DNA from: a bacterium
Lineage (GTDB): Bacteria > SZUA-182 > DTGQ01
Direction: 5' to 3'
DNA length: 64,000 nucleotides
Assembly: GCA_040755755.1 (NCBI GenBank)
Contig: JBFLZW010000050.1
Span: forward strand, 1-64,000
Positions within the stretch are counted from its first letter, which is position 1, and every line of letters starts with the position of its first letter. Positions 46,602 through 62,643 of the stretch are shown here, in pieces. The translations under genes and the position numbers were made by a program. Below the pieces are notes generated by a model. It had not been told where the DNA came from. It did no database searches and saw only the letters and a list, made by a program, of their open reading frames with translations.

Positions 46602-46654
46602 GAGGGCTGATTGAAGGGCAGGTTTGTCCCTCTCGAAAATGAGATGCTTTTATC

Positions 46655-47740
46655 TCATTTTGTGCCTGCCAGGGCTGATTGTGCCCTGTGCAGATTCTCG
46701 CTGGCCCTGGAATAGAAGACCGGCCTGGCTGCAATCGCCTTCTCAAAATACTGGATCGCCTCCTGGTATTTCCCCTCGGCCATGTACAGGTATCCGATGT
46801 TGTTATAGGCGGCTGCCTCATCTCCCGCACCTTTTTTGAAAGCCTCCAGTGCATCTGCATATCTTCCCAGTTTCCCGAAGGCCAGTCCGAGATTATTGTA
46901 CGTCGCTTGATTTACCGGCCGTATTCTTGAGGCTCTGGATAAGATATCCGCTGCCTTTTCATAATCCTGAGCTGAATAGTAGGACATTCCCAAATTATTC
47001 AGCAGGGGGCCTGAACCGGGATTGATAGCTATGGCCTTCTGGTACTCACTGATAGCGGATTCATACTGCTTCTCCAGGTCATAAATCAGGCCCAGGGAAG
47101 CATGGGCCCGCCACGATTGCGGATTAAGACTTACCGCCTCGGAGAAGTTATCTTTCGCTTCATCCAGTTCTCCTCTGGCCAGAAACACGCGCCCTTTACC
47201 CTCATAGGCCAGGGCATTCCGGGGATCGGTTTTCAGAATCTCTTCAAAGGCTGTCAGCGCTTCTTCGGTCAGTCCCTTCCGTAAACAGAGGATCCCCAAC
47301 TTGTAATGAACATTGGCCTGATGAGGATACAGGTGAAGGGCCTTGTCATATTGCAGAAGAGCCAGGCCTATTTTACCCTGCCTGATATACTGATCGCCAA
47401 GCTTCTCATATCCCTCCACGGCTTGGACGGCAGTAGTGGAAAACCGGCTCGTTCTTTTTTTCTCCGGGGTGGGGGGAGGAGACCATCGCGTTCTCTTGTG
47501 CGCAATGGGAAACCAGCTCTTTCCCTCCTCCCCGGCAGTTGCTGAAGCCCTTTGTTTTTGCAGTGTCTGCAACCTCGTGTATTCAAGCTCACGAAATCTG
47601 TTCTTCTTATTCCCCCACCTGGCGCAGCCAACCACGCCAGCGATAACAGCCGCCCCCAGAAGAGTGTACATAAGAGTACAAAAGCATGAAATGGATAACT
47701 GTATGGTCAGGCTTAATTTGCTGCGGTCAAGCGTATTCAC
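46655..47740 (-). CDS. TPR protein of the Tad locus (TadD-like)
   Basis: A 361-residue protein anchored by an N-terminal hydrophobic segment (about 14-38) that ends GVVGCARWG, possibly a lipobox. After a basic linker (about 50-100) come eight or so tetratricopeptide repeats, such as VHYKLGILCLRKGLTEEAL, AHASLGLIYDLEKQYESAI and TYNNLGLAFGKLGRYADAL. It is the last gene of the tad operon direction and lies 63 bases after tadC. TadD-type TPR lipoproteins are required for secretin assembly in known systems, which fits; the family match itself rests on context. Confidence 0.8.
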   Translation of the reverse strand: MNTLDRSKLSLTIQLSISCFCTLMYTLLGAAVIAGVVGCARWGNKKNRFRELEYTRLQTLQKQRASATAGEEGKSWFPIAHKRTRWSPPPTPEKKRTSRFSTTAVQAVEGYEKLGDQYIRQGKIGLALLQYDKALHLYPHQANVHYKLGILCLRKGLTEEALTAFEEILKTDPRNALAYEGKGRVFLARGELDEAKDNFSEAVSLNPQSWRAHASLGLIYDLEKQYESAISEYQKAIAINPGSGPLLNNLGMSYYSAQDYEKAADILSRASRIRPVNQATYNNLGLAFGKLGRYADALEAFKKGAGDEAAAYNNIGYLYMAEGKYQEAIQYFEKAIAARPVFYSRASENLHRAQSALAGTK

Positions 47741-47803: not shown

Positions 47804-48781
47804 TCATCTGCGCAACAACTGGGGCAGTTTATCGATTATTTTAATAACCGGCGGTCCCAGGATAACGATCAAAAGGGAAGGGAAAATGAAAAAAATAAGA
47901 GGAAACAGGATCTTGACCGGTAATTTGCCAGCCATCTCTTCCGCTCTTTGCTGTCTTTTGACCCGCATGGCATCTGAATGGATCCTCAGTGCCTGGGCTA
48001 TACTGGTGCCAAACCGTTCTGCCTGGATCAATAAGGTTACCAGGCTCTTTACATCTTCGAGGTCGGTTCTGAAGGCCAGGCTTCTCAGGGCATCGATACG
48101 CGATTTTCCAGCCCTCAGTTCCAGATTGAGTACCTGAAGCTCATCGCTGATTTCCTGATTGACCAGCCTCATTTCCTCGGCAACCCGGTTAATGGCGGCA
48201 TCCAATCCCATCCCTGCCTCAACGCAGACAACTAAAAGGTCCAGTGAGTCCGGAAAGCCTTCGCATATCTTCTCTTTTCTCCGGTCAGTATGTGCCCGGA
48301 GCCAGATATGAGGCAGATAAAAGCCTGCCACGGCCATCAGGAGCAGGATAAATGCCAGGAATTTGTGCTCGACAGGCCTGGGGAGAATGAGCTGAACAAA
48401 CAGACAGGCGGATGGCAGCAGAATAGCGAAAAAACCCTTGGCACCGAAGAAGATAATAGCTGCATTTCTGCTCCGGTAGCCAGCCCGGAGGAGATTTTTC
48501 TGCATGCTGGATAACTCCCCCTCGCTCTTTGGCTTCACGAAATTTCCCAGCCTGCTCATGATCCTGACCAGGTATTGTTTAATCCAGGTGAAAACAGCAT
48601 TTGGCCCTCTTACGAGGGTGAGCTCCCTGGTACGCTGCCTGATGCCATCCTGTTTAATTTTTTCCACAAGACTGCGCCGCTCCCGGCAATACCTGACGTA
48701 AGAGAAAACCAGAGCAAGGGTCAGCATAACGGTGATAAAAATTGATGCAGGAAGTAATAACATCATGAAATCATTAACCAT
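47804..48781 (-). CDS. tadC: Tad pilus inner-membrane protein TadC
   Basis: A 325-residue type II secretion F-domain protein. It has an N-terminal helix (about 8-28), a cluster of two helices around 100-150, the conserved cytoplasmic core FPDSLDLLVVCVEAGMGLDAAINRVAEEM (in two parts around 178-205), and two C-terminal helices (about 285-315). It pairs with TadB as the platform for the TadA ATPase. A 4-base gap follows tadB. Confidence 0.92.
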   Translation of the reverse strand: MVNDFMMLLLPASIFITVMLTLALVFSYVRYCRERRSLVEKIKQDGIRQRTRELTLVRGPNAVFTWIKQYLVRIMSRLGNFVKPKSEGELSSMQKNLLRAGYRSRNAAIIFFGAKGFFAILLPSACLFVQLILPRPVEHKFLAFILLLMAVAGFYLPHIWLRAHTDRRKEKICEGFPDSLDLLVVCVEAGMGLDAAINRVAEEMRLVNQEISDELQVLNLELRAGKSRIDALRSLAFRTDLEDVKSLVTLLIQAERFGTSIAQALRIHSDAMRVKRQQRAEEMAGKLPVKILFPLIFFIFPSLLIVILGPPVIKIIDKLPQLLRR

Positions 48782-48785
48782 ATGA

Positions 48786-49757
48786 CTAAACCTTTATCCT
48801 GATCATCTTCCTCATAACCAGAATTCCCATCCCCATCATGACCAGAGCGCCGAGAGCCAGCTTCACGCCTCGAGGGTCGGTCAGCAGGATTCGGGAATAC
48901 TCCGGATTTATCAAGGACATTAAACCGAACAAGCAAAAGGGAAGGGCGACCAGGATAACCGCCGAGATTCTTCCCTCCGCAGACAGTGCCTGGATATGGC
49001 CGCGCAGCTTGAACCTTTCCCGGATGAGACGGCTGATATTCTCCAGGATTTCGGCCAGGCTCCCGCCGCTCTGCCTCTGGATGATGACGGAAATAGCAAA
49101 AAACTTAATATCAGGGCAACTGACACGCTCGGTAAGTCCCTTCAAAGCTTCAGGAAATCCAACTCCAAGGTTGATCTGGGCCAGCATTTTTTCAAATTCA
49201 CTCCCTATGGGATCATCAAACTCCTGGGCTACCATCTGGAGCCCTGTGGGGAAAGCCTGCCCTGCTTTCAGGGCCCGGGCAATCAAATTGAGGGCATCGG
49301 GCAGTTGTTCCTCAAACTTGCGCATTCTGCGGTTTCTCTTCAGGGTGAGGAAAAAAAAAGGTAGCATAGCTGCCAGGGCACCTGCGGGCAATCCGATTTT
49401 AAAGTTATTACCCAACCAGCCAGCAATCAGGGATCCGGCCAGGGCCAGGACAAGGCTGCACAGGACATAAACTCCGAGAGGCTGATGAGTATTGGATTGC
49501 TGCAAGAGCTGATCGAACCAGCGTATGATCGGAGCTCTGACGTTTGACAGCATCCTGTTGAGCCACGGGATACCACTCAGCTCCTTCTTGCGTCTGATAA
49601 CCATAGGCGCATTCTTTGAAGCCGTGGCAGCGGTTCCCTGCAGTTCCCTCCGGACTCTTCTTGCCTCCGGGTTCCATAATGCTCTGAAAACCTGGAAAAT
49701 CAGTATCGTAAAGAGCAGGATAGTGATAAAGAGAAGAACTGTGCCGAAAATTTCCAT
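48786..49757 (-). CDS. tadB: Tad pilus inner-membrane protein TadB
   Basis: A 323-residue type II secretion F-domain protein with N-terminal helix (about 4-26), two helices at about 95-150, and the core LPDALNLIARALKAGQAFPTGLQ, then GGSLAEILENISRLIRERF and two C-terminal helices. It is directly followed by tadC, so the two platform subunits are made together. It starts 20 bases after the tadA stop. Confidence 0.92.
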   Translation of the reverse strand: MEIFGTVLLFITILLFTILIFQVFRALWNPEARRVRRELQGTAATASKNAPMVIRRKKELSGIPWLNRMLSNVRAPIIRWFDQLLQQSNTHQPLGVYVLCSLVLALAGSLIAGWLGNNFKIGLPAGALAAMLPFFFLTLKRNRRMRKFEEQLPDALNLIARALKAGQAFPTGLQMVAQEFDDPIGSEFEKMLAQINLGVGFPEALKGLTERVSCPDIKFFAISVIIQRQSGGSLAEILENISRLIRERFKLRGHIQALSAEGRISAVILVALPFCLFGLMSLINPEYSRILLTDPRGVKLALGALVMMGMGILVMRKMIRIKV

Positions 49758-49777: not shown

Positions 49778-51100
49778 TTAAATCTCCAATACCTTTGGAG
49801 TACTGAAATGTTCATACGAAAAGGGGATACTTCGCGCCTTAAACCTGTCCACAAACTTTGGTAAGACACCTGTCATTCTGAATCGCCCTTTTACCTTGCC
49901 ATTATTATCCACACCAGTTTGTTCGAAGGAGAAGATTTCCTGTCTGGAGATAATATTTCCCTCCATGCCGGTAATTTCCTGAAGGCTTACCACCTTTCTG
50001 CTCCCGTCAACCAAACGTGCAGTTTGGATAATGACATTTAAGGCAGAGCTGATATATCTCCTGACCGCCTCATGGGGGATGGTAAGGCCGGACATGGACA
50101 CCAGTGTCTCTACCCTGATCAGAGCATCGAATGGCGTGTTGGCATGGATAGTGGTCAAGGATCCATCATGACCGGTGTTCATAGCCTGAAGCATGTCCAG
50201 CACTTCAGCTCCCCTGACCTCACCAACGATAATGCGTTCAGGCCGCATTCTGAGACTGTTTCTTACCAGCTCCCGCGTACTGATCTCACCCTTCCCCTCG
50301 ATGTTGGCAGGACGTGTTTCCATACGGACCACATGTTCCTGTTTCAGTTGCAGCTCTGCCGCATCTTCGATCGTGATAATCCTCTCGTCCGCCGGAATAA
50401 ACCGGGAAAGTACATTCAGGAGTGTGGTCTTCCCGCTCCCTGTCCCCCCGGAAATCAGAACATTCAATCTCGCTTTCACAATCCCTTGCAGAAGTTCTCC
50501 GATTTCCGGAGTCAGGGTCCTGAACTTGATCAAATCTTCCAGCTCAAGCGGATCAACGGCAAACCGCCTGATAGAGAGCAATGGGCCATCTACGGCAATG
50601 GGCGGTATAACGGCATTGACTCTGGAGCCGTCAGGCAATCTGGCATCCACCATCGGACAGAATTCATCGATCCGGCGGCCGACAGAGGAGACAATCCTGT
50701 CGATGACTTTCCTCAGATGATCATCATCCCTGAACCGGACATCGGTATGATGGAGTTTTCCGCTCTTCTCCACATATACCTGCCGGTATCCATTAACCAT
50801 GATGTCTGAGATTCCAGAATCACGCATGAAGGGTTCTATTGGCCCAAGCCCGGTGACCTCATCCTGAATCTCCTGATAAAACTGCTCCCTCTCCCCGGGA
50901 TTCAGGGGCATGCTGAACTGGTCCTCTGATAGTATTTCCTCGGTTAACTCCCGGATTTGCCGTTTTAAAGTAGTTTGGTCGAGCGAGTCAATCAGTGACA
51001 GATCCAAGACCTCGATCAGACGGTCATGAACTTTAGCTTTCATGTCGATGTATTCATTTGTTCTTGAAAAGGCGAACGATCTTTCGTTACCCAGGGCCAT
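49778..51100 (-). CDS. tadA: Tad pilus ATPase TadA/CpaF
   Basis: The secretion ATPase that drives Flp pilus assembly. The 440-residue protein has an N-terminal helical domain (about 15-100). The CpaF-type core includes DARLPDGSRVNAVIPP, Walker A ISGGTGSGKTTLLNVLS (about 217-233), the TIEDAAELQL Asp box, Walker B RMRPERIIVGEVRGAE and the His box NTGHDGSLTTIHANTP. All are intact. It lies 17 bases after the CpaE/TadZ gene. Confidence 0.95.
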   Translation of the reverse strand: MALGNERSFAFSRTNEYIDMKAKVHDRLIEVLDLSLIDSLDQTTLKRQIRELTEEILSEDQFSMPLNPGEREQFYQEIQDEVTGLGPIEPFMRDSGISDIMVNGYRQVYVEKSGKLHHTDVRFRDDDHLRKVIDRIVSSVGRRIDEFCPMVDARLPDGSRVNAVIPPIAVDGPLLSIRRFAVDPLELEDLIKFRTLTPEIGELLQGIVKARLNVLISGGTGSGKTTLLNVLSRFIPADERIITIEDAAELQLKQEHVVRMETRPANIEGKGEISTRELVRNSLRMRPERIIVGEVRGAEVLDMLQAMNTGHDGSLTTIHANTPFDALIRVETLVSMSGLTIPHEAVRRYISSALNVIIQTARLVDGSRKVVSLQEITGMEGNIISRQEIFSFEQTGVDNNGKVKGRFRMTGVLPKFVDRFKARSIPFSYEHFSTPKVLEI

Positions 51101-51117: not shown

Positions 51118-52374
51118 CTAATTTCCACCGGATGTTGGTGTACGGGAAAAGATAGGGGCACCGCCGCTGACTTTTGTCAGCCATTTTGGCAGCTTGAAAC
51201 CGGTCAGGCCCTCTTTCCCTTCACCTTCGTCCCTGCCGGAAAGCAGGTCAGACAGTTCTTTGAATTTCCGTGATATCTCAGCGCCGGAGTCCAGAGCGGA
51301 AAGAGGCTTTCCCTGATTTATGGCGCTCATGGTCAGTTGGTAATTATTGGGAATACTCCACAAAAACTTTTTCTTGATACTTGCCTCCGCCTCTTTCAAT
51401 GAGACCGTGGAGTTTTTCTGGAGCCGGTTCACCAGTATCTGGACGTTCTTTTCAGCAGGAAAACCGAGGTCACGAAAGGTCGATAGGATTCTTTTAACAT
51501 TAATGAGAGAGGGAAGGCTGAGCGAAGTGACCATGAGGACCGTATCCGCCAGCCGGAGAGTCCCTCTGGCCATTCCCTCAAGGGATTGCCCGCTGTCTAC
51601 GATAACAAAATCGAACATCTTGCGGATCTGCTCAAGGATGGTCCCCATGATCTCATCAGGAGTCGCTTTCTCTTCTTCATGCAGTTTGGGCGGCGGTACC
51701 AGAGGCAGTCTGGAGGGAGATGGCAGCACATAGACTCCTGAAGAGTGCCGAAAAAATATACTGGTCAGATAGGCAGTATCCAGCCGGGAAATATTCCTGA
51801 CAGCCTCTGCCCAATCATAGGCAGGCTTGATACCCAGAAAAAGCGATACATCTCCGAAAGGAGGGCTCATATCGAGAAGAGCCACTGACTGAGAGCCTCC
51901 TGATTCAGCCAGGCTGACAGCAAGGTTTACCGCCACCGTAGTTGTCCCCACTCCGCCTTTGCTTCCCAGGATATTGATTATTTTCTCTTTCTTCGGTTGA
52001 GCCTTGCCCTGCTCCTTGCGCTCCCTGAATCGCTCCCTGAATTGATTAAGAGCACTTTGGACCTCTTCTTTTCGAAATGGCTGCGGGAAAAACTCCCTCA
52101 CTCCGGTCCGCAGGGCTTTCAGCAGGGTTTCAGGATTGGTGTCCTGCGAGGTCAGGAAAACCTCTCCGACTATGCCCAAAGATTGAAGATCATTCATGAT
52201 CCTGAATTCCTCCGATGGATCATCTCCCATTTCCATGATCAGAAGGTCGCACGGCTCGGAGCTTTCAACTCTCTGGAGATAAAATCCTTCCACCGAAGAG
52301 ATGATTTCTTCCAATTCCTCCCGTATCTTCTGCGTCTTGCTTTTGATTCTCACTGAAATGCTGTTTTCAGGCAT
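51118..52374 (-). CDS. tadZ: Tad pilus protein TadZ/CpaE
   Basis: A MinD/ParA-like localisation protein of 418 residues. The N-terminal receiver-like domain (about 1-125) has no canonical phospho-aspartate context. It is followed by the ATPase domain with the deviant Walker A GSKGGVGTTTVAVNLA (about 139-154) and the switch ALLDMSPPFGDVSLFLG. The later VDSGQSLEGMARGTLRLAD replaces the usual Walker B. TadZ positions the pilus machine at the pole in known systems. The start is ATG 52374. Confidence 0.92.
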   Translation of the reverse strand: MPENSISVRIKSKTQKIREELEEIISSVEGFYLQRVESSEPCDLLIMEMGDDPSEEFRIMNDLQSLGIVGEVFLTSQDTNPETLLKALRTGVREFFPQPFRKEEVQSALNQFRERFRERKEQGKAQPKKEKIINILGSKGGVGTTTVAVNLAVSLAESGGSQSVALLDMSPPFGDVSLFLGIKPAYDWAEAVRNISRLDTAYLTSIFFRHSSGVYVLPSPSRLPLVPPPKLHEEEKATPDEIMGTILEQIRKMFDFVIVDSGQSLEGMARGTLRLADTVLMVTSLSLPSLINVKRILSTFRDLGFPAEKNVQILVNRLQKNSTVSLKEAEASIKKKFLWSIPNNYQLTMSAINQGKPLSALDSGAEISRKFKELSDLLSGRDEGEGKEGLTGFKLPKWLTKVSGGAPIFSRTPTSGGN

Positions 52375-52513: not shown

Positions 52514-53665
52514 TCACTCGACCAGCCCGGCAAAGTTGCTCCTAATGGCTCTCGGCGTAGCACTAAATCGAGCACGTATTCCATATTCTGTTCCCGCTTG
52601 TCCACTATAGTTTATAATCTCGGTCAAGGTAATTAAGGTAAATCCTGCAATTTTCTTTCCCCCCACGGGTGGATTTTCTCCTGCGGCAGGCTCATCCTCA
52701 TAAATCACAGCTTTCATTGTCCAGGTCTCCGGATCGTTATCAGCATCGTCTTCCCCATCGTTTCTTCCCTTCATATCATCGAAAAACTTTTTCATCGGGA
52801 AAAAATTAGAAGCACCATGAATCTCCTCCACGTTTACAAAATTGCATGTATCGTTTACCTTTACCTCCGGACTGGTAAATTCTCCACTGAGTACAGCCTC
52901 CATAAGCCATTTAAAGTTATGGAAACTGGGGGTCATATCGTAGGTATGCCATCCGATAAACCAGTTATGGTAATCGCCCTGACTTTCATCAAAGTAAGGG
53001 GAAAGCCATATCTCTTTACCATTGTAACTCGGGTCATCAATAATGCGTTCGGATACTCCGACCGTTAACGAGAGGCTCCCCGGACTCATTGTATGCTGAA
53101 AAATCAGGGAAGACGTGGCGTAAGCAATGGCAGGGGCAGCTTTCATACTGAAAAACCTGGCAAAAAAGGTAGCTACCGGGCTATTGCCAGGGGTACTGCC
53201 GTCTTTGCGGACTATTACTCTTACTGCATCCGGTTGATTCAAAGTTTCCTTAAATCGTTGCTTCGGGTCCGGCTCCTTCCAATCCCAGATGCCGATTTTT
53301 ATATCGCTGTCAGCAATGGTGATGGCTTCCCCTGCTGCACTGTTCAGCCCTGCTACATACCGAACAGCTTCTCTGATATCCGCCTGATCTTCTGCCTCAC
53401 AAATATACCCCTGCTGCTCCCAGGGTTTCATATCTTTATAAATGTCTCCCAGAATTCCGGCACCGCGCAGTACTGTGGCATCTGCTATAGTCTGAAGCTC
53501 GTTTCTGACGATACTTAGAATGGGCCCATCGATCACCAGGGCAGCAATGCCTGTCAGGATCCCTGCGCCTAAAAGTATAACTACGATAATGCCTATTACG
53601 CCCCTTTCTTCCTTCATTTCTGGAATACCTGGAAACCGTCTTTTTACTCTATCCATCTTGTTCAT
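52514..53665 (-). CDS. Tad-domain (TadG-like) protein
   Basis: A 384-residue protein. After a basic leader it has EERGVIGIIVVILLGAGIL and GIAALVIDGPILSIVRNELQTIADATVLRGAG, the Pfam Tad/TadG N-terminal signature of one membrane helix followed by a short helix. The rest is a large periplasmic domain without recognised motifs. I choose ATG 53665, preceded by GGGGGAAG; the open frame continues 16 codons upstream without a site. In other loci TadG-like proteins are minor pseudopilin-like components. Confidence 0.82.
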   Translation of the reverse strand: MNKMDRVKRRFPGIPEMKEERGVIGIIVVILLGAGILTGIAALVIDGPILSIVRNELQTIADATVLRGAGILGDIYKDMKPWEQQGYICEAEDQADIREAVRYVAGLNSAAGEAITIADSDIKIGIWDWKEPDPKQRFKETLNQPDAVRVIVRKDGSTPGNSPVATFFARFFSMKAAPAIAYATSSLIFQHTMSPGSLSLTVGVSERIIDDPSYNGKEIWLSPYFDESQGDYHNWFIGWHTYDMTPSFHNFKWLMEAVLSGEFTSPEVKVNDTCNFVNVEEIHGASNFFPMKKFFDDMKGRNDGEDDADNDPETWTMKAVIYEDEPAAGENPPVGGKKIAGFTLITLTEIINYSGQAGTEYGIRARFSATPRAIRSNFAGLVE

Positions 53666-53896
53666 AATCTTCCCCCATCCTTTAAAATTTGACCGCTCAT
53701 ATCGTCCAGGCAATAAATAAACCCGCTTTACCCTTTTCCTTCTTGAGGCTTGTTCAGGGCTTTCAGGAAAGCTTTAGAGCCTGTGTGTCAGGGGAGGTTT
53801 TGTGAGGATGATGGATAAAAACCATCCCCCTTTCCCCTCCCCTTTAAGGAAGAAGGAGAGCAGGTAATCTCATGGCTATGAGAGATGAGCTATATT

Positions 53897-54310
53897 TTAT
53901 TCATATATCATCACCGCCTGGGAGCTTAAGGTAAGTGAGTCACCAAGACCGGGGATAAACGAGTCAAGGGCCCAAAAATCGTATCTGTAAGTTGCCGTAA
54001 CGTAGAGAGGTTTCCCCGGCATTTGGCCCTCAGGATGGTCAACATCAATCACCCCGTCCAAGGGCATAAGAGGCTGCAAATAATAACTCACCGTCTCCTT
54101 TATCTCATCATCACTTACCGATCCGGCCGGATACACGATTCCTCGCCGTGCTCCTTCCCTGCATGCATTGGTAATGATCTGTTTATTACATAGAGCTAAA
54201 CCAAATTCGATTATACCGAAAATAAAAACGAACAGCAGCGGCATGAGAATAGCAAACTCAACGGCCACACTGCCTTTTTCGCCTCTAAGTTTTCCCATAG
54301 TGATTGTCAC
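53897..54310 (-). CDS. tadE: TadE-like minor pilin
   Basis: A 137-residue pseudopilin. The N-terminus KLRGEKGSVAVEFAILMPLLFVFIFGIIEFG is the TadE signature: a short basic leader, the Glu at position 5 after the processing site (in VAVEFA) and a long hydrophobic helix. It is followed by QIITNACREGARRGIVYPAG. The prepilin peptidase of this locus may process it. It lies 6 bases after the small lipoprotein and 231 bases before the TadG-like gene; that gap holds a C-rich repeat but no gene. Confidence 0.88.
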   Translation of the reverse strand: MTITMGKLRGEKGSVAVEFAILMPLLFVFIFGIIEFGLALCNKQIITNACREGARRGIVYPAGSVSDDEIKETVSYYLQPLMPLDGVIDVDHPEGQMPGKPLYVTATYRYDFWALDSFIPGLGDSLTLSSQAVMIYE

Positions 54311-54316
54311 CTCCGG

Positions 54317-54613
54317 TCATTTCACTTCTATTCTATTTACTCGATTGATATTCTGGGTATTCCCGGTTGCCGCGCATGAATTTCCAAATCCCTGCCGGTA
54401 GCCCTCTACTACCCTGCGGGCTGCCTGCCCATCGAGCCCGTAGACCGGATCGGGGGGCTGTCCTCCAGCCTCGGGATTGAGGGTCTGATGAAGTTTAGCC
54501 AGCATGAAGGAGGTACCATAATCAACCTCCAGCCGGCTCATCCTGCCAGTACAACCTGCGAAAAACATCAATCCGATGATCAGCCCTGCCAACACAGGGC
54601 ATTGCATGGTCAT
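54317..54613 (-). CDS. Small lipoprotein of the Tad locus
   Basis: A 98-residue protein with signal segment and lipobox MFFAGC (cysteine about residue 21), then YGTSFMLAKLHQTLNPEAG, a proline-rich turn and GQAARRVVEGYRQGF. The position between the secretin and tadE and the operon spacing (6 bases to tadE) suggest a Tad-specific lipoprotein, perhaps a pilotin-like partner of the secretin. No family name can be given with confidence. An AGGAGGG site lies 8 bases upstream. Confidence 0.75.
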   Translation of the reverse strand: MTMQCPVLAGLIIGLMFFAGCTGRMSRLEVDYGTSFMLAKLHQTLNPEAGGQPPDPVYGLDGQAARRVVEGYRQGFGNSCAATGNTQNINRVNRIEVK

Positions 54614-54649: not shown

Positions 54650-56224
54650 CTAAGGTTGTATATGCCCGAAATTTCCTTCCAGCCCGCTCCCGCCTGACAT
54701 AACTTCTCCCTCGATACGGGGCAGGATTGAAGGCAGGTCCGAATGATTGGCAGCGGAAGGCCCTTCCCCCCTTCCTTCCATTGCCCCTTCCAGGTAAAAC
54801 TCAAAGTCATCCGGCTCGATATATTCATCCGTAGGCAGTGTCTGTCTGGCTAAATCAAGCGGTTTTACCAGATGAGGAGTAACAATGATAATCAGCTCGG
54901 TCTCATTTTTCTGAAACAAGCTGCTCCGAAAAAGCGAACCCAGGATCGGAATATCACCCAGGAGAGGAAATTTCCGGACAATTTCACGGGCGTCATTCTT
55001 CAGAAGGCCGGCAATGGCAAAGCTCTGCCCGTCGCCCAGCTCGATCATGGTTGAAACGCGCCTGGTAGTCAGGGATGGCACGATAAATCCCGCGTAAGCC
55101 AGAGCATTGGTGAAATCGAGCTCAGATGATTCAGGAGTCACCTCCATATTGATTTTCCCGCTGCTCAATACCGTAGGGGTAAATTCCAGTCCAACCCCGA
55201 ATTTTTTATATTCTATCGCAATGCCGTCCTGTTGCGGTACCGGGATAGGATACTCGCCTCCAGCAAGGAAATTGGCGGATTTACCGCTTAAGGTGATCAG
55301 CGTCGGTTCTGCCAGGATTTTTACCAGGCCCTGTTCCTTCAGGGCATCGATAAGAAAGGTCCACGGGACTTCATCGGCATACAGGCGGAAAATGGCGTTG
55401 ATGCTTGATGATAGCTGCAATCTCTTGTCTTTGAAATTTTCAGTTGGCGAAAGGTCGGAAATCGTCGATAGGTTATCGAGAGTGCTTATCCAGAACTGCT
55501 TTCCGGTTTTATTTACGGTATTAAAATTAATGCCCAGCTTTTTGCCTATACTGCGGGACATCTCAGCTATCCGGACATCGAGCATCACCTGGTGTACACC
55601 TCCAACCTCGAGAAAATTATTGACCCTGGACTGCCCGCCCTGTCCCCTGGGAGCATACGACTCGGCCAGAGCCAGTACCTCGGACAGGCAGGCAGCACTG
55701 GAAACAGTGCCTGACAGGCTGAGACTGTCATGGGTAGCTGCCACCCGGATATTCTCTTCCCTGGGGAACATTTCATGGAGTTTCTCTTTCAACCGGCTTA
55801 TGTCCGGGACAACCTCAAGATCGAAAACATCGCTGACCCTTTCCTCGTGATTCCAGACCTCATCATTCCAGAATGTAAGGCTGGTCACTCCGGCAGCCTT
55901 GCCGGTAAGATAAATCTGCTGCGGTGTGATTACCAGGGCATCAGCCACTGCAGGATCAGCCAGAGATACCCGCTTCACCTTGTGGGGACTTTCAACGATA
56001 ATTGATTTTCCCACCGTCAGGGTCAGTTTCTGGGGAATAGTCATGTTCATATTCGCCTTTTCCTGGATATCAACCCTTTCCGAACTGTCGGTGCTCTCTG
56101 CCCGGCTTCGAAAAGGAAAAATGAGACACAAGGCCACCATAATCACCCAAAGAGCTTCTCTCACCCGTTTATCGAGCACAGCTCCCCTCCGCCACGCTGT
56201 AATATTCTTGGATTTCCTATTCAA
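54650..56224 (-). CDS. cpaC: Tad pilus secretin CpaC/RcpA
   Basis: The outer-membrane pore of the Flp pilus. The 524-residue protein has a signal helix (about 25-42), the CpaC/RcpA N-domain with KLTLTVGKSIIVESPHKVKRVSLADP, a BON-like segment (about 140-190) and the C-terminal secretin domain. That domain has AEPTLITLSGKSANFLAGGEYPIPVPQ (about 310-337), the VSTMIELGDGQSFAIAGLL motif and LIIIVTPHLVKP. Its ATG overlaps the end of cpaB by 8 bases, indicating coupled translation. Confidence 0.93.
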   Translation of the reverse strand: MNRKSKNITAWRRGAVLDKRVREALWVIMVALCLIFPFRSRAESTDSSERVDIQEKANMNMTIPQKLTLTVGKSIIVESPHKVKRVSLADPAVADALVITPQQIYLTGKAAGVTSLTFWNDEVWNHEERVSDVFDLEVVPDISRLKEKLHEMFPREENIRVAATHDSLSLSGTVSSAACLSEVLALAESYAPRGQGGQSRVNNFLEVGGVHQVMLDVRIAEMSRSIGKKLGINFNTVNKTGKQFWISTLDNLSTISDLSPTENFKDKRLQLSSSINAIFRLYADEVPWTFLIDALKEQGLVKILAEPTLITLSGKSANFLAGGEYPIPVPQQDGIAIEYKKFGVGLEFTPTVLSSGKINMEVTPESSELDFTNALAYAGFIVPSLTTRRVSTMIELGDGQSFAIAGLLKNDAREIVRKFPLLGDIPILGSLFRSSLFQKNETELIIIVTPHLVKPLDLARQTLPTDEYIEPDDFEFYLEGAMEGRGEGPSAANHSDLPSILPRIEGEVMSGGSGLEGNFGHIQP

Positions 56225-57173
56225 ATGTCACCTCACTAATCTTATCTCCCTTAATCAATTCAACGGTAAACGGCGATTTGACCGATGTCGGGGGGAGGGC
56301 GAGGAGTCCAGCCACCTTTTTACCGCCCTTTTTCCCTGTCCCCCTCTTCTTAACTATCTTTCCTGTTTTTACCACTGGCTTGAGCTGCGGAGCGTTACTG
56401 TCCCTGCACGAGGCCAGAAGGTCCGGTATGGTTATCCCCCTGGTGGGGATGAACGCGATATTGCTGCAACTTCGAAGTGCCAACTGAATCTTGCCCTCGG
56501 TAGCGGCCAGAGCCAGCTTTTCTCCTTCATCCGGCGTCACCTCAAGAGTGATAACATCCACCTCGACAGCTTTTTCCTGTTTTTTGCCATCCCGACCTAC
56601 TTCTGTCTCAACAGCCATTTGTGTACCGGAAGCCAGAACCTGGATGTTTTCAAGCACGGTCTTGGTTATGGGGCCGCTATCCCTCTTCTCCGGATCCTGC
56701 TCCCTTAAGGTTACCAGGACGTCCACCCGATGACCGGGGAAGATAAAGCCGGATACACCAATAACTTTGTCCACCTTTACCGCCATAGCCCGTTTTTCCT
56801 TGTCAATTACCGCAGCCATTCCACCGCTGTCTGAGGTAATGGGAGCTAATCTGGATTCCAGTATCGGCTCGCCTGCTTTGACTGGATAGCGAATGATTCG
56901 GTTCACCAGTTTGGAGGGATCGGTAAAAAACAAGTTCTTGCCTGTTTTCTTATCTGTTGGCAGGCTTTCCTTCAGGAAAGGTGCTCCTTTGATCAATTCC
57001 TTGGTAAGGATTTCACCCCACTTCAAATTGCGGGCTGCTGTTGCTATGATGACCCGCTCCCTGGAAGTTTCTCCCAACGGGGAAAGTTCTATATATTTGA
57101 GGATGCATATCGTAAGTATTAAAGATATAACCATGGCCAGGCCAAGCAACATGATTGATTTACTCCTATCCAT
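56217..57173 (-). CDS. cpaB: Tad pilus protein CpaB/RcpC
   Basis: A 318-residue periplasmic protein with one N-terminal membrane helix (about 8-28) and an SAF-type beta-clip domain (from IIATAARNLKWGEILTKELI). A middle domain follows with MAVKVDKVIGVSGFIFPGHRVDVLVTL, the CpaB signature. A lysine-rich loop around 275-290 (KKRGTGKKGGKK) is unusual. It sits after the prepilin peptidase and overlaps cpaC by 8 bases. Confidence 0.92.
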   Translation of the reverse strand: MDRSKSIMLLGLAMVISLILTICILKYIELSPLGETSRERVIIATAARNLKWGEILTKELIKGAPFLKESLPTDKKTGKNLFFTDPSKLVNRIIRYPVKAGEPILESRLAPITSDSGGMAAVIDKEKRAMAVKVDKVIGVSGFIFPGHRVDVLVTLREQDPEKRDSGPITKTVLENIQVLASGTQMAVETEVGRDGKKQEKAVEVDVITLEVTPDEGEKLALAATEGKIQLALRSCSNIAFIPTRGITIPDLLASCRDSNAPQLKPVVKTGKIVKKRGTGKKGGKKVAGLLALPPTSVKSPFTVELIKGDKISEVTFE

Positions 57174-57275: not shown

Positions 57276-57809
57276 TTAAATAATCCTGCCCAAGACCGAG
57301 AGTAACGTCCCGAAGGCAATGGCCAGTCCATAGTACAAAGCAGGTCCCTTTTCCCCCCTGGACGCAGGTATGTAAGCTATCTGCCGGGTATAAAAGAATG
57401 TCTTCACCATAGCTCCGTATCGCCCGATCATATTTTGGACCTGCCCATGAAGCATGGCAATGACAATGGCATAAACACCGCCGAACAGGGCAGTACCCAA
57501 AAAGGCGGAAAATACTCCCTTCGGCCCCACTAAGCTGCCGACCGCCCCCATAAGCTTGACATCACCAGCTCCCATGCCCCCTGACAGATAAAAAATGATT
57601 AATAGACCCAACCCGATTGCCACACCTGCTGCACTCGAGAGCAATCCCTTCCATCCTTCCGTCCAGGTGTGATAAATAATTCCCGTTACCATAGTGGAAA
57701 ATGTGAGCCAGTTGGGAATTTTCCGGGATAAAATGTCACCTGTGGCAGCCACAGGCAGTATAATGGCTAAGTATACTATGGGAAATGCTTCAGTTATCCT
57801 TGGTTCCAT
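57276..57809 (-). CDS. tadV: Prepilin peptidase TadV/CpaA
   Basis: An A24-family aspartic peptidase of 177 residues that cleaves Flp prepilins. It has five to six hydrophobic helices, the first catalytic aspartate in ATGDILSRKIPNWLT (about 24), and the second in GGMGAGDVKLMGAVGSLVG (about 82), the GxGD motif of the family. The long-form methyltransferase domain is absent, as usual for CpaA. It lies directly downstream of the two pilin genes. Confidence 0.93.
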   Translation of the reverse strand: MEPRITEAFPIVYLAIILPVAATGDILSRKIPNWLTFSTMVTGIIYHTWTEGWKGLLSSAAGVAIGLGLLIIFYLSGGMGAGDVKLMGAVGSLVGPKGVFSAFLGTALFGGVYAIVIAMLHGQVQNMIGRYGAMVKTFFYTRQIAYIPASRGEKGPALYYGLAIAFGTLLSVLGRII

Positions 57810-57863: not shown

Positions 57864-58037
57864 CTATCTCGGTAAATCAGGTATACACTTAGATATGGCA
57901 CCAAAATATGTGTTCAGGCTACGACCCAATGAGCCCGCCCCTATTGTCATGGCCAGAGCGATCAATCCAACAAGCAAAGCATATTCAAGAGCGACTGCTC
58001 CATCTTCATTTTTTAAAAATTTTATCATTTTATCCAT
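57864..58037 (-). CDS. Flp/Fap pilin 2
   Basis: A 57-residue pilin, too short for many gene callers. The N-terminus MDKMIKFLKNEDGAVALEY holds the Gly-Ala cut region with Glu5-Tyr6 (after GAVAL) and is followed by ALLVGLIALAMTIGAGSLG, the hydrophobic Flp helix. The tail NTYFGAISKCIPDLPR contains one cysteine, absent in the other pilin. It lies between the first pilin and the prepilin peptidase gene. Confidence 0.92.
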   Translation of the reverse strand: MDKMIKFLKNEDGAVALEYALLVGLIALAMTIGAGSLGRSLNTYFGAISKCIPDLPR

Positions 58038-58153
58038 GGTATCTACTGTGCAAGGTATTATTAGTATTAACGATATAATAGGTTATTTATACTATCTGGT
58101 TTAGATAGTATTCTCCCTCCTGAAGCGCATCGTTCTCATTACGCATAAAAGAG

Positions 58154-58194
58154 GTGCATTACTTACCCCCTCAGATGCAAGGTAAGTAATGCAC
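58154..58194 (-). terminator. 14-bp hairpin between the two pilin genes
   Basis: GTGCATTACTTACC (58154-58167) is exactly inverted at 58181-58194 with a 13-base loop. On the minus strand the stem is followed by CTCTTTTATG, a short T run. It lies 59 bases after the first pilin stop and could partially terminate or stabilise the pilin mRNA, giving much more first pilin than downstream machinery. Confidence 0.55.
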
Positions 58195-58253
58195 TCCCGT
58201 ATCCATTCAGATCAAAAGACGTCATCTGGGATCAGCAGACGTTATTAAGCTCC

Positions 58254-58427
58254 CTATCTTGGAAAAGAAGGTATTCTATTAGCTATGTCCTGAAAATATT
58301 GGTTTAAGTTAATACCCAATGCGCCTGCCCCGACGAGAATCGCAAGAGCGATCAAGCCAAGAAGCAAAGCATACTCAACAGCGCCGGCTCCTTCTTCATC
58401 TTTCAAAAATCTCATCAATTTGTCCAT
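58254..58427 (-). CDS. Flp/Fap pilin 1
   Basis: A 57-residue pilin and first gene of the Tad run. MDKLMRFLKDEEGAGAVEY has the processing site G-AGAVEY with Glu-Tyr in place. ALLLGLIALAILVGAGALG is the hydrophobic helix, and the tail NLNQYFQDIANRIPSFPR lacks cysteine. An AAGGAAGG site is 8 bases upstream. It is about 60% identical to the second pilin by eye. The hairpin behind it suggests it is the major pilin. Confidence 0.93.
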   Translation of the reverse strand: MDKLMRFLKDEEGAGAVEYALLLGLIALAILVGAGALGINLNQYFQDIANRIPSFPR

Positions 58428-60651: not shown

Positions 60652-60728
60652 ACGGGACGGTTTCCTTCCTGATATCGCCTTACGGTTATAACTTTCGAAT
60701 TTTTTCCTACACGGGCACCAGGGAAAGA

Positions 60729-60762
60729 CGGGAGAAGTGGGGCATCGGGAAGACTTCTCCCG
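60729..60762 (-). terminator. Putative ftsH terminator hairpin
   Basis: CGGGAGAAG at 60729-60737 pairs exactly with CTTCTCCCG at 60754-60762, a 9-bp stem with a 16-base loop starting at the base after the ftsH stop. On the minus strand it is followed by TCTTTCCC, only a weak T tract, so termination may be partial. Confidence 0.5.
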
Positions 60763-62643
60763 TTATTTTTGAGCGAATGCCTTGACAGCCACAGGCGCTT
60801 CTATTACCGGGACCTTTTGGTTAGCTGGAGGAGCGTCTTTTTTATCCGGCTGGAGCTCACCCCTGACCAGTGCTTCGATCTCCGCTCCATCCAGCACTTC
60901 CTTTTCCAGCAGGGCGAGGGCCAGGCTGTTCAGTTGGCTCAGGTAGGTTGTCAGAATTGTCTTGGCCAGGTTATAATTCTCGTTCACAATTCTCTTAATC
61001 TCCTGATCGATCAGAATGGCGGTATCCTCGCTGTAGTCCCGGTGCTGAGCAAATTCCCGGCCAAGGAAAATCTGCTCTTCCTTCTTTCCGAACGAAAGAG
61101 GGCCGAGTTTGTCGCTCATTCCCCACTCGCAGACCATTTTTCTGGCCAGTTCCGTAGCCCGCTCGATATCGTTGCCCGACCCGGTGCTCAGGCTGTTCAG
61201 GACGATCTCTTCAGCCGCCCTGCCGCCCAGCAGAATGGCAATGTTCTTGAGCAGGTAGTCCGACGAATAGTTATGCTTTTCATCAAGCGGAAGCTGCTGC
61301 GTCAGGCCCATGGCCCGGCCACGGGGGATGATGGTCACCTTGTGAATCGGGTCTGTTCCCGGCAGCATCATGGCCACCAGAGCATGGCCGGATTCGTGGT
61401 AGGCAGTGATCTTCTTCTCCTCGTCGCTGATGATCATGCTCTTTCGTTCCTTGCCCATCATGACCTTGTCCTTGGCTGCCTCGAAGTCTTCCATGGCCAC
61501 TTTATCCTTGCCCTTTCTGGCCGCCAGAAGGGCCGCCTCATTGACCAGGTTGGCCAGGTCAGCACCGGAAAACCCGGGGGTTCCGCGGGAGAGTACCTTC
61601 AAATCGACATCGGCGGTCAGGGGCACGTTTTTGACATGAACTCTCAGAATGCCCTCACGCCCCTTGATATCCGGACGGGAAACCACTACCTGCCGGTCGA
61701 ACCTGCCGGGCCGCAGGAGTGCCGGATCGAGAACATCCGGCCTGTTGGTGGCAGCCACGATAATAACCCCTTCATTGGATTCAAAGCCATCCAGCTCGAC
61801 CAGCAGTTGGTTGAGGGTCTGCTCCCGCTCGTCATGACCGCCGCCGAGCCCTGCGCCACGGTGACGGCCTACGGCATCGATCTCATCCACGAAAATGATG
61901 CAGGGGGCATTCTTTTTCCCCTGCTCGAACAGATCACGCACCCGGGAGGCACCGACACCGACAAACATTTCCACAAAATCGGAGCCGCTGATGCTGAAGA
62001 AGGGCACATCCGCCTCTCCGGCGATAGCCCGGGCCAGCAGGGTCTTTCCGGTCCCCGGAGGCCCCATGAGCAGCACTCCCTTGGGGATTTTTCCTCCCAG
62101 TCTCTGGAATTTTTGCGGATCACGTAAAAATTCGATGATTTCCTGCAGCTCGTCCCTGGCCTCATCAATGCCCGCCACGTTTTCAAAGGTAACTTTCTGC
62201 TTGGGATTGGAGAGCATCTTGGCCTTGCTCTTGCCAAAGGAAAGCGCTTTGGCCCCTCCTCCCTGCATCTGCCGCATCAGATATATCCAGATGGCAATAA
62301 TCAGGATCAGGGGAAACCAGGAAATAAAGAGATTGGTAAACCAGGAATTTTCATCCACGGGTTTAGCTTCGATCCGGATGTTCTTGGTCCGCAGGGTCTT
62401 GATCAGGTCTGGATCGTTGGGAGAAAAGGTCTTGAATCGGCTGTTATCCTGATAAGTGCCCTGAATGTCATTACCCTTGATGATAATTTCCGCTACATTC
62501 CCCTTTTGGACTTCCTCCATGAACTCGCTGAAAATAATTTTTTTAACCTGCGACCTTGGAGTATTAAAGAGGTTGAAGAGCAGAATCAGGACCAATCCCA
62601 TGACCAGCCACAGGGCTAAATTTTTATAGAATGAATTATTCAA
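60763..62643 (-). CDS. ftsH: ATP-dependent zinc metalloprotease FtsH
   Basis: FtsH degrades membrane and short-lived cytosolic proteins. I start at TTG 62643 because GGAGG lies 7 bases upstream and [14 protein letters not shown] is the usual beginning; an ATG at 62676 would add 11 residues but has no site. The 626-residue protein has two membrane helices (about 9-24 and 107-124), AAA domain with Walker A GPPGTGKT (194-201), Walker [33 protein letters not shown], and the zinc site HESGH. All are intact. Confidence 0.96.

Follow-up and report, generated by a model that had tools for sequence, protein, structure and literature searches.

A stable hairpin between tandem Flp pilin genes at the head of a Tad locus, with a possible role in stabilising the first pilin message

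How can one operon supply a pilin in large amounts and the machinery that assembles it in small amounts? The window analysed here (the whole stretch of DNA, 64,000 nucleotides long) raises this question at a Tad locus. A preliminary description had noted two Flp pilins with a 14-bp perfect inverted repeat between them, and had proposed that partial termination or mRNA protection at this site sets a high ratio of the first pilin. Arm coordinates, base pairing and Pfam matches of both pilins (hereafter P1 and P2) bear out this arrangement. The interval 58154-58427 given for it takes in P1 and the hairpin only; P2 lies outside.

Both pilins exceed the Pfam cut-off for Flp_Fap (PF04964) of 32.2 bits (Table 1), and no further Flp pilin was found in the window's own genome at E ≤ 0.001. 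In an alignment of six pilins, G13, E18 and Y19 of G|XXXXEY, the prepilin processing motif of Flp/Fap pilins, are invariant. By sequence, the closest solved structures are the PilA (Flp pilin) chains 8u2b and 8u1k, which we take to be from Caulobacter. Consistent with the earlier statement that the second pilin and an assembly operon follow the hairpin, Pfam matches and gene order place the Tad genes downstream in the same direction, with prepilin peptidase, RcpC/CpaB, secretin, TadE and a TadZ-like ATPase beside the pilins. PF00437 matched once and PF00482 twice over cut-off, as expected for a CpaF-type ATPase with two platform proteins; these two models are broader than Tad, and the Tad names of the genes in question rest on gene order. 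The small protein with a lipobox-like cysteine matched no Pfam family. The stop codon of the TPR gene, with which the locus ends, is overlapped by a 10-bp stem (46636-46661) whose 3' arm ends in TTTT.

Table 1. Features of the Tad locus in the window, in the direction of reading
Feature	Position	Strand	Basis
Sigma-54 (-24/-12) promoter-like site TGGCATCTTTTTTGCT, 270 nt before P1	58697..58712	(-)	exact match to TGGCAYN5TTGCW
P1, first Flp pilin, 57 aa, good Shine-Dalgarno AAGGAAGG	58254..58427	(-)	PF04964, 50.8 bits; upstream sequence
Hairpin, 14-bp perfect, 13-nt spacer, then CTCTTTTATG	58154..58194	(-)	sequence, fold, shuffles
Second, smaller hairpin, 9 bp, 5-nt loop, arms 58089-58097 and 58103-58111	58089..58111	(-)	fold z -2.3
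P2, second Flp pilin, 57 aa, single Cys at residue 51	57864..58037	(-)	PF04964, 44.9 bits
Prepilin peptidase, CpaA/TadV type	57276..57809	(-)	PF01478, 67.9 bits
RcpC/CpaB	56217..57173	(-)	PF16976, 108.8 bits
Secretin, CpaC/RcpA type	54650..56224	(-)	PF00263 and PF13629
Small protein, Cys in lipobox-like place (FFAGC), possible lipoprotein	54317..54613	(-)	translation; lipobox read by eye
TadE-like pseudopilin	53897..54310	(-)	PF07811, 64.4 bits
Tad_C-like protein, just under Pfam cut-off	52514..53713	(-)	PF09977, 21.8 vs 22.1 bits
TadZ/CpaE-like ATPase	51118..52374	(-)	PF13614 AAA_31, 62.6 bits; Tad name from gene order
CpaF/TadA-like assembly ATPase	49778..51100	(-)	PF00437 T2SSE, 224.4 bits
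TadB-like platform protein	48786..49757	(-)	PF00482 T2SSF, 74.1 bits; TadB by gene order
TadC-like platform protein	47804..48781	(-)	PF00482 T2SSF, 72.7 bits; TadC by gene order
TPR protein, TadD-like by place, last gene of the run	46655..47740	(-)	TPR_1, 151.2 bits

The hairpin stands out from its surroundings. All 14 bases of one arm pair with those of the other (GTGCATTACTTACC; 58154-58167 with 58181-58194) across a 13-nt spacer, which makes this the longest perfect short-loop stem of the window and the only one of at least 14 bp with a loop of 3-30; in 20 dinucleotide shuffles of the window the mean number of such stems was 0, and stems of at least 12 bp numbered two in the window compared with 0.15 in the shuffles. 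The minus-strand RNA (81 nt) folds at -30.9 kcal/mol with a z-score of -5.1, a value equalled by 0 of 200 shuffles, and the whole 216-nt intergenic region between P1 and P2 has a fold z of -3.8. Of the strong stem and short T tract described earlier, the stem thus holds up well; the tract amounts to four T in a row, as the U tract after the hairpin is limited to CUCUUUUAU in the minus-strand downstream sequence CTCTTTTATG. A simple terminator scan of the window gave 8 sites against 8.6 expected and missed this hairpin because the scan allows loops of 3-8 only; a weak 6-pair site of the same scan lies at 58241-58223, between P1 and the 14-bp hairpin. The second, smaller hairpin sits between the 14-bp hairpin and P2. 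Directly before it we noticed AGGAGGG (58121-58115), about 75 nt ahead of the P2 ATG and with no ordinary start codon adjoining. Elsewhere in the window, an 11-bp perfect stem with a loop of 14 (60728-60763) at the end of an FtsH-like gene, named by eye, is the third longest, behind those at 58154 and 16120. Rfam returned nothing over threshold; the matches below it, mir-1297 (24.6 vs 84 bits) and Atu_L1 (17.1 vs 60 bits), were taken as chance, and a known RNA family was rejected.

We then looked at relatives, using nine genomes of the phylum, all drafts of 88-98% completeness. Flp_Fap matches at E ≤ 0.001 occur in four of the nine (over the cut-off in three), and RcpC is found in exactly these four, which indicates that Flp pilins track the Tad locus. 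Tandem Flp pilins are present in three: the window's own genome, a congener (G001) and a genome of the same order (G004). The preliminary description had held that relatives lacking the hairpin would speak against its reading; a hairpin follows the first pilin in all three tandem-pilin genomes, the window's own included. In the congener, P1 is followed in the same place as in the window by similar arms, GCATTAYTTACC (5' side) and AAGTAATGC (3' side). Between these two sequences 12 of 14 pairs hold, with one double change and two one-sided changes, and the two broken pairs are near the loop. The pairing-preserving changes include a G-U and a U-G pair. A shuffle control on this pairing, in which 249 of 500 shuffles reached the observed values, is uninformative because only two sequences enter it. 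In G004 the hairpin is of unrelated sequence (z -3.1; 1 of 200 shuffles as good) and begins about 110 nt past the stop codon, too far downstream to be scored in the survey scans described below, where the locus therefore counts as a miss (z +1.2 at 120 nt and +0.3 at 150 nt). The fourth genome, G005, has a single pilin and was likewise a miss in the 150-nt scan (z +1.2). By eye, a long inverted repeat of ccaggct-like units lies there between the pilin and CpaB (locus L006, about 1866-1995); it extends beyond the 70 nt that the scan can span. As for the congener's genes, its P2 falls under the Flp_Fap cut-off (21.8 vs 32.2 bits), and its RcpC/CpaB matches come as two pieces in different frames (G001:C8:80128-80480), possibly reflecting a frameshift or an assembly error.

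These comparisons bear on two readings in which the stem has no function at the RNA level. As a mere chance structure in intergenic DNA, with no regulatory effect, it would be hard to reconcile with the lack of any equally long stem in the 20 window shuffles, with its retention in the congener and with the general enrichment of stable folds after Flp pilins reported below; we consider this extremely unlikely. The inverted repeat might instead work at the DNA level, perhaps as an operator or as a scar left by a mobile element, since it is a perfect palindrome whose arm sequence is largely conserved in the congener and whose arm pattern, allowing one mismatch, is commoner than the backward pattern in all nine phylum genomes, among the matches listed (complete for the own genome and G001). 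The own genome holds 31 arm matches against 7 for the backward control, an excess that we take for an effect of base composition. Yet of these 31 no two are within 100 nt of one another except the arms of this hairpin, and the 155-nt hairpin region matches nothing in its own genome but itself. A dispersed repeat element found no support on the same grounds. Furthermore, the changes between species mostly keep the pairing, including the G-U and U-G pairs that suit RNA, the relatives too have their hairpin right behind a pilin, and operators do not usually have a spacer of 13 nt. A role as DNA is thus very unlikely.

To place the arrangement among Tad loci more broadly, we surveyed 89 loci: the best 80 of at least 366 candidates for the pattern EY[AG]L[LI][LAV][GAC]LIA (many of these 80 being Proteobacteria by title), the window and eight further loci. 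Hits that overlapped were counted as one, and any on the strand opposite to the main one (e.g., at L050) were omitted; one pattern-scan locus had too little sequence downstream of its first or only pilin, leaving 88 in the fold tables. Control ORFs were called mechanically, with at least 250 aa for the stricter controls of the 150-nt scan. Within 120 nt past the stop codon, a stable fold (z ≤ -2) followed 51 of 88 first-or-only Flp pilins and 26 of 202 other gene ends; the corresponding counts were 12/89 for upstream regions and 8/28 for later pilins. Within 150 nt the figures were 48/88 for first-or-only pilins and 21/150 for controls (Fisher p 5.5e-11), along with 8/72 for gene ends with a close downstream ORF and 9/28 for later pilins. 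Terminator scores above zero were found after 46 of 88 first-or-only pilins and 11 of 150 controls (p 8e-15). Both p-values are overstated, because the sample is non-random and many loci are related. The pattern-scan loci alone gave z ≤ -2 for 10/20 first, 33/59 only and 8/25 later pilins, with controls at 18/128 and 5/42. Among the Tad loci sampled, a stable fold behind the first or only Flp pilin is thus common, and the order P1, hairpin, P2 is for this reason mostly ordinary.

Does the hairpin terminate transcription or protect the RNA? Of the 48 stable post-pilin folds of the 150-nt scan, 38 were terminator-like and 10 were not, which marks termination as the commoner solution elsewhere. 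The main alternative to protection is a leaky intrinsic terminator, at which most transcripts would end after P1 while a fraction reads through to P2 and the assembly genes. The terminator-like hairpins after first-or-only pilins speak for it, as does the finding that in 62 of 65 single-pilin loci an ORF of 80 aa or more (called mechanically) starts within 500 nt in the same direction. For the window itself, the score (of the d'Aubenton Carafa type, applied to the window, G001, G004 and the survey loci) changes sign with the end chosen for the stem. With the tail counted from UUUUAUGCG it is +12.2 (stem extended by GAG:CTC) or +12.9; the core stem gives -11.7 and the 150-nt fold -25.8. The hairpin hence appears as a non-terminator in the 150-nt survey and as terminator-like in the scoring that gave +12.2. 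The relatives argue against termination as the conserved feature, because the congener's hairpin, without a U tract, scores -27.9 and that of G004 -26.8. A leaky terminator is possible, and we give it a substantial but minor share of the probability.

We favour protection over termination because the stem is kept within the genus and the U tract is not. The window hairpin is stable and retained in the congener, and the relatives have no U tract; what fits protection less well is the UUUU run of the window and the hairpin of G004, which has another sequence altogether. Of the two mechanisms proposed in the preliminary description, the relatives' scores thus support protection, with the window's own score remaining ambiguous. 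Judging from sequence and scores, the window's genus appears to belong to the smaller group with non- or weak-terminator folds. A decay-blocking 3' end that stabilises the P1 message is in our judgement the best explanation of the hairpin as a whole, and a somewhat probable one.

Under such protection, the locus could work as follows. P1 would probably be the principal subunit in the shaft of a Tad (type IVc) pilus. Transcription of all the genes would probably start from a promoter upstream of P1, likely sigma-54 dependent. The exact sigma-54 match listed in Table 1 is the only one in the window, where 0.15 were expected and 14 of 100 shuffles had at least one. The congener also has an exact match (L016, 6759-6744, minus strand), 571 nt ahead of its first pilin, and a protein with a sigma-54 DNA-binding domain is encoded in the window's genome; in G004, the 238 nt present upstream of the first pilin hold no match with up to two mismatches. 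The minus strand also carries sigma-70-like matches ahead of P1 (58783-58755 and 58786-58758). Between the pilins, the promoter scan of the minus strand found no sigma-70-like match and no exact sigma-54 match, so that P2 is probably read from upstream. Nucleases would shorten the long operon RNA from its downstream side and halt at the hairpin, and the P1 mRNA would thereby outlast the message for P2 and the assembly genes. The UUUU run may in addition make a modest fraction of the polymerases stop at this point. It is plausible, by analogy with the systems discussed below, that the hairpin sets a high ratio of P1. P2 would be made in smaller amounts, as a minor or adapter Flp pilin, also because its ATG, in contrast to that of P1 with AAGGAAGG ahead of it, has no clear Shine-Dalgarno sequence nearby. 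Weak translation of P2 is not conserved, since the second pilins of G001 and G004 have good ribosome-binding sites (AAAGGAAAG and AGAAGGAAAA, respectively).

The two pilins may differ in role. The C-terminal cysteine ascribed to P2 is present, at residue 51 of 57 and so not terminal. Its conservation among second pilins, which had been proposed as a check, holds in the congener, offset by one residue, and fails in G004, whose P2 has no cysteine; the congener's P2 carries an extra cysteine within the hydrophobic segment. Among the 117 pilins of the 89 loci, ten have cysteine in the C-terminal part (2 of 23 first, 3 of 28 later and 5 of 66 only pilins). Eight of these have exactly two there, which could pair with each other, and a single one is found in just the P2 of the window and of G001. 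A single cysteine as a general mark of second pilins was accordingly rejected. The suggestion of a tip or anchor rests on one cysteine, which may serve as a small lead and is not evidence for either role. In its fullest form, it would make P2 of this genus a specialised subunit that is kept scarce by the hairpin, caps or anchors the P1 shaft, and is linked covalently through its single cysteine, either as a disulfide dimer or to some other protein of the surface; we regard this as rather unlikely.

Operons in which an intercistronic hairpin protects the upstream message by selective RNA processing and stabilisation are known, with Rhodobacter puf reportedly among them. In E. coli operons, according to the accessible text of PMC5927463, the 3' ends of stabilised upstream mRNA segments lie just past a stable hairpin without a uridine tract in 26 of 34 cases; that study had excluded any gene pair with a terminator motif in between, so the missing U tracts are partly by design. 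In Clostridium cellulolyticum, the accessible text of PMC4423207 describes stem-loops at processing sites that set subunit ratios, 28 of 33 without a following U run. The window resembles malEFG of E. coli and cip-cel of C. cellulolyticum in that the gene expected to have the stabler message is followed by a strong hairpin lacking a proper U tract. In those systems RNA ends and processing were measured; for the window the comparison is one of sequence. It also resembles Tad/Flp (type IVc) operons in general, with one or more Flp pilins at the 5' end followed by the same machinery genes in one direction and commonly with a post-pilin fold. Unlike the terminator-like majority of survey folds, the hairpins of the window, G001 and G004 have a poor U tract or none.

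Older work on the Aggregatibacter flp operon reportedly mapped transcripts. In a literature search by titles and abstract openings, with subscription papers mostly outside its scope, we found no hairpin described after flp-1 or pilA of a Tad locus, and the word "terminator", along with "hairpin" or "stem-loop" (one or the other, depending on the paper), is absent from PMC3767616, PMC10934763, PMC11264516 and PMC6748444. For the second pilin, the closest parallel comes from Myxococcus, where, in the accessible text of PMC12075869, KilK and KilO are low-expressed Flp proteins that act as adapters between tip and shaft. Like P2, they are small Flp proteins besides a major pilin (in their case KilP), and they are transcribed at very low levels; they sit in tip-gene clusters, whereas P2 adjoins P1. 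By analogy, they show that a further Flp protein can serve as a minor pilin, as P2 may do.

Together, the survey and the locus suggest that a stable fold behind the pilin, terminator-like or not, gives a simple account of how much pilin and little machinery may come from one operon. In this poorly sampled phylum, P2 with its one cysteine and the sigma-54 site that the two congeners have in common offer small handles on the architecture and control of the pilus.
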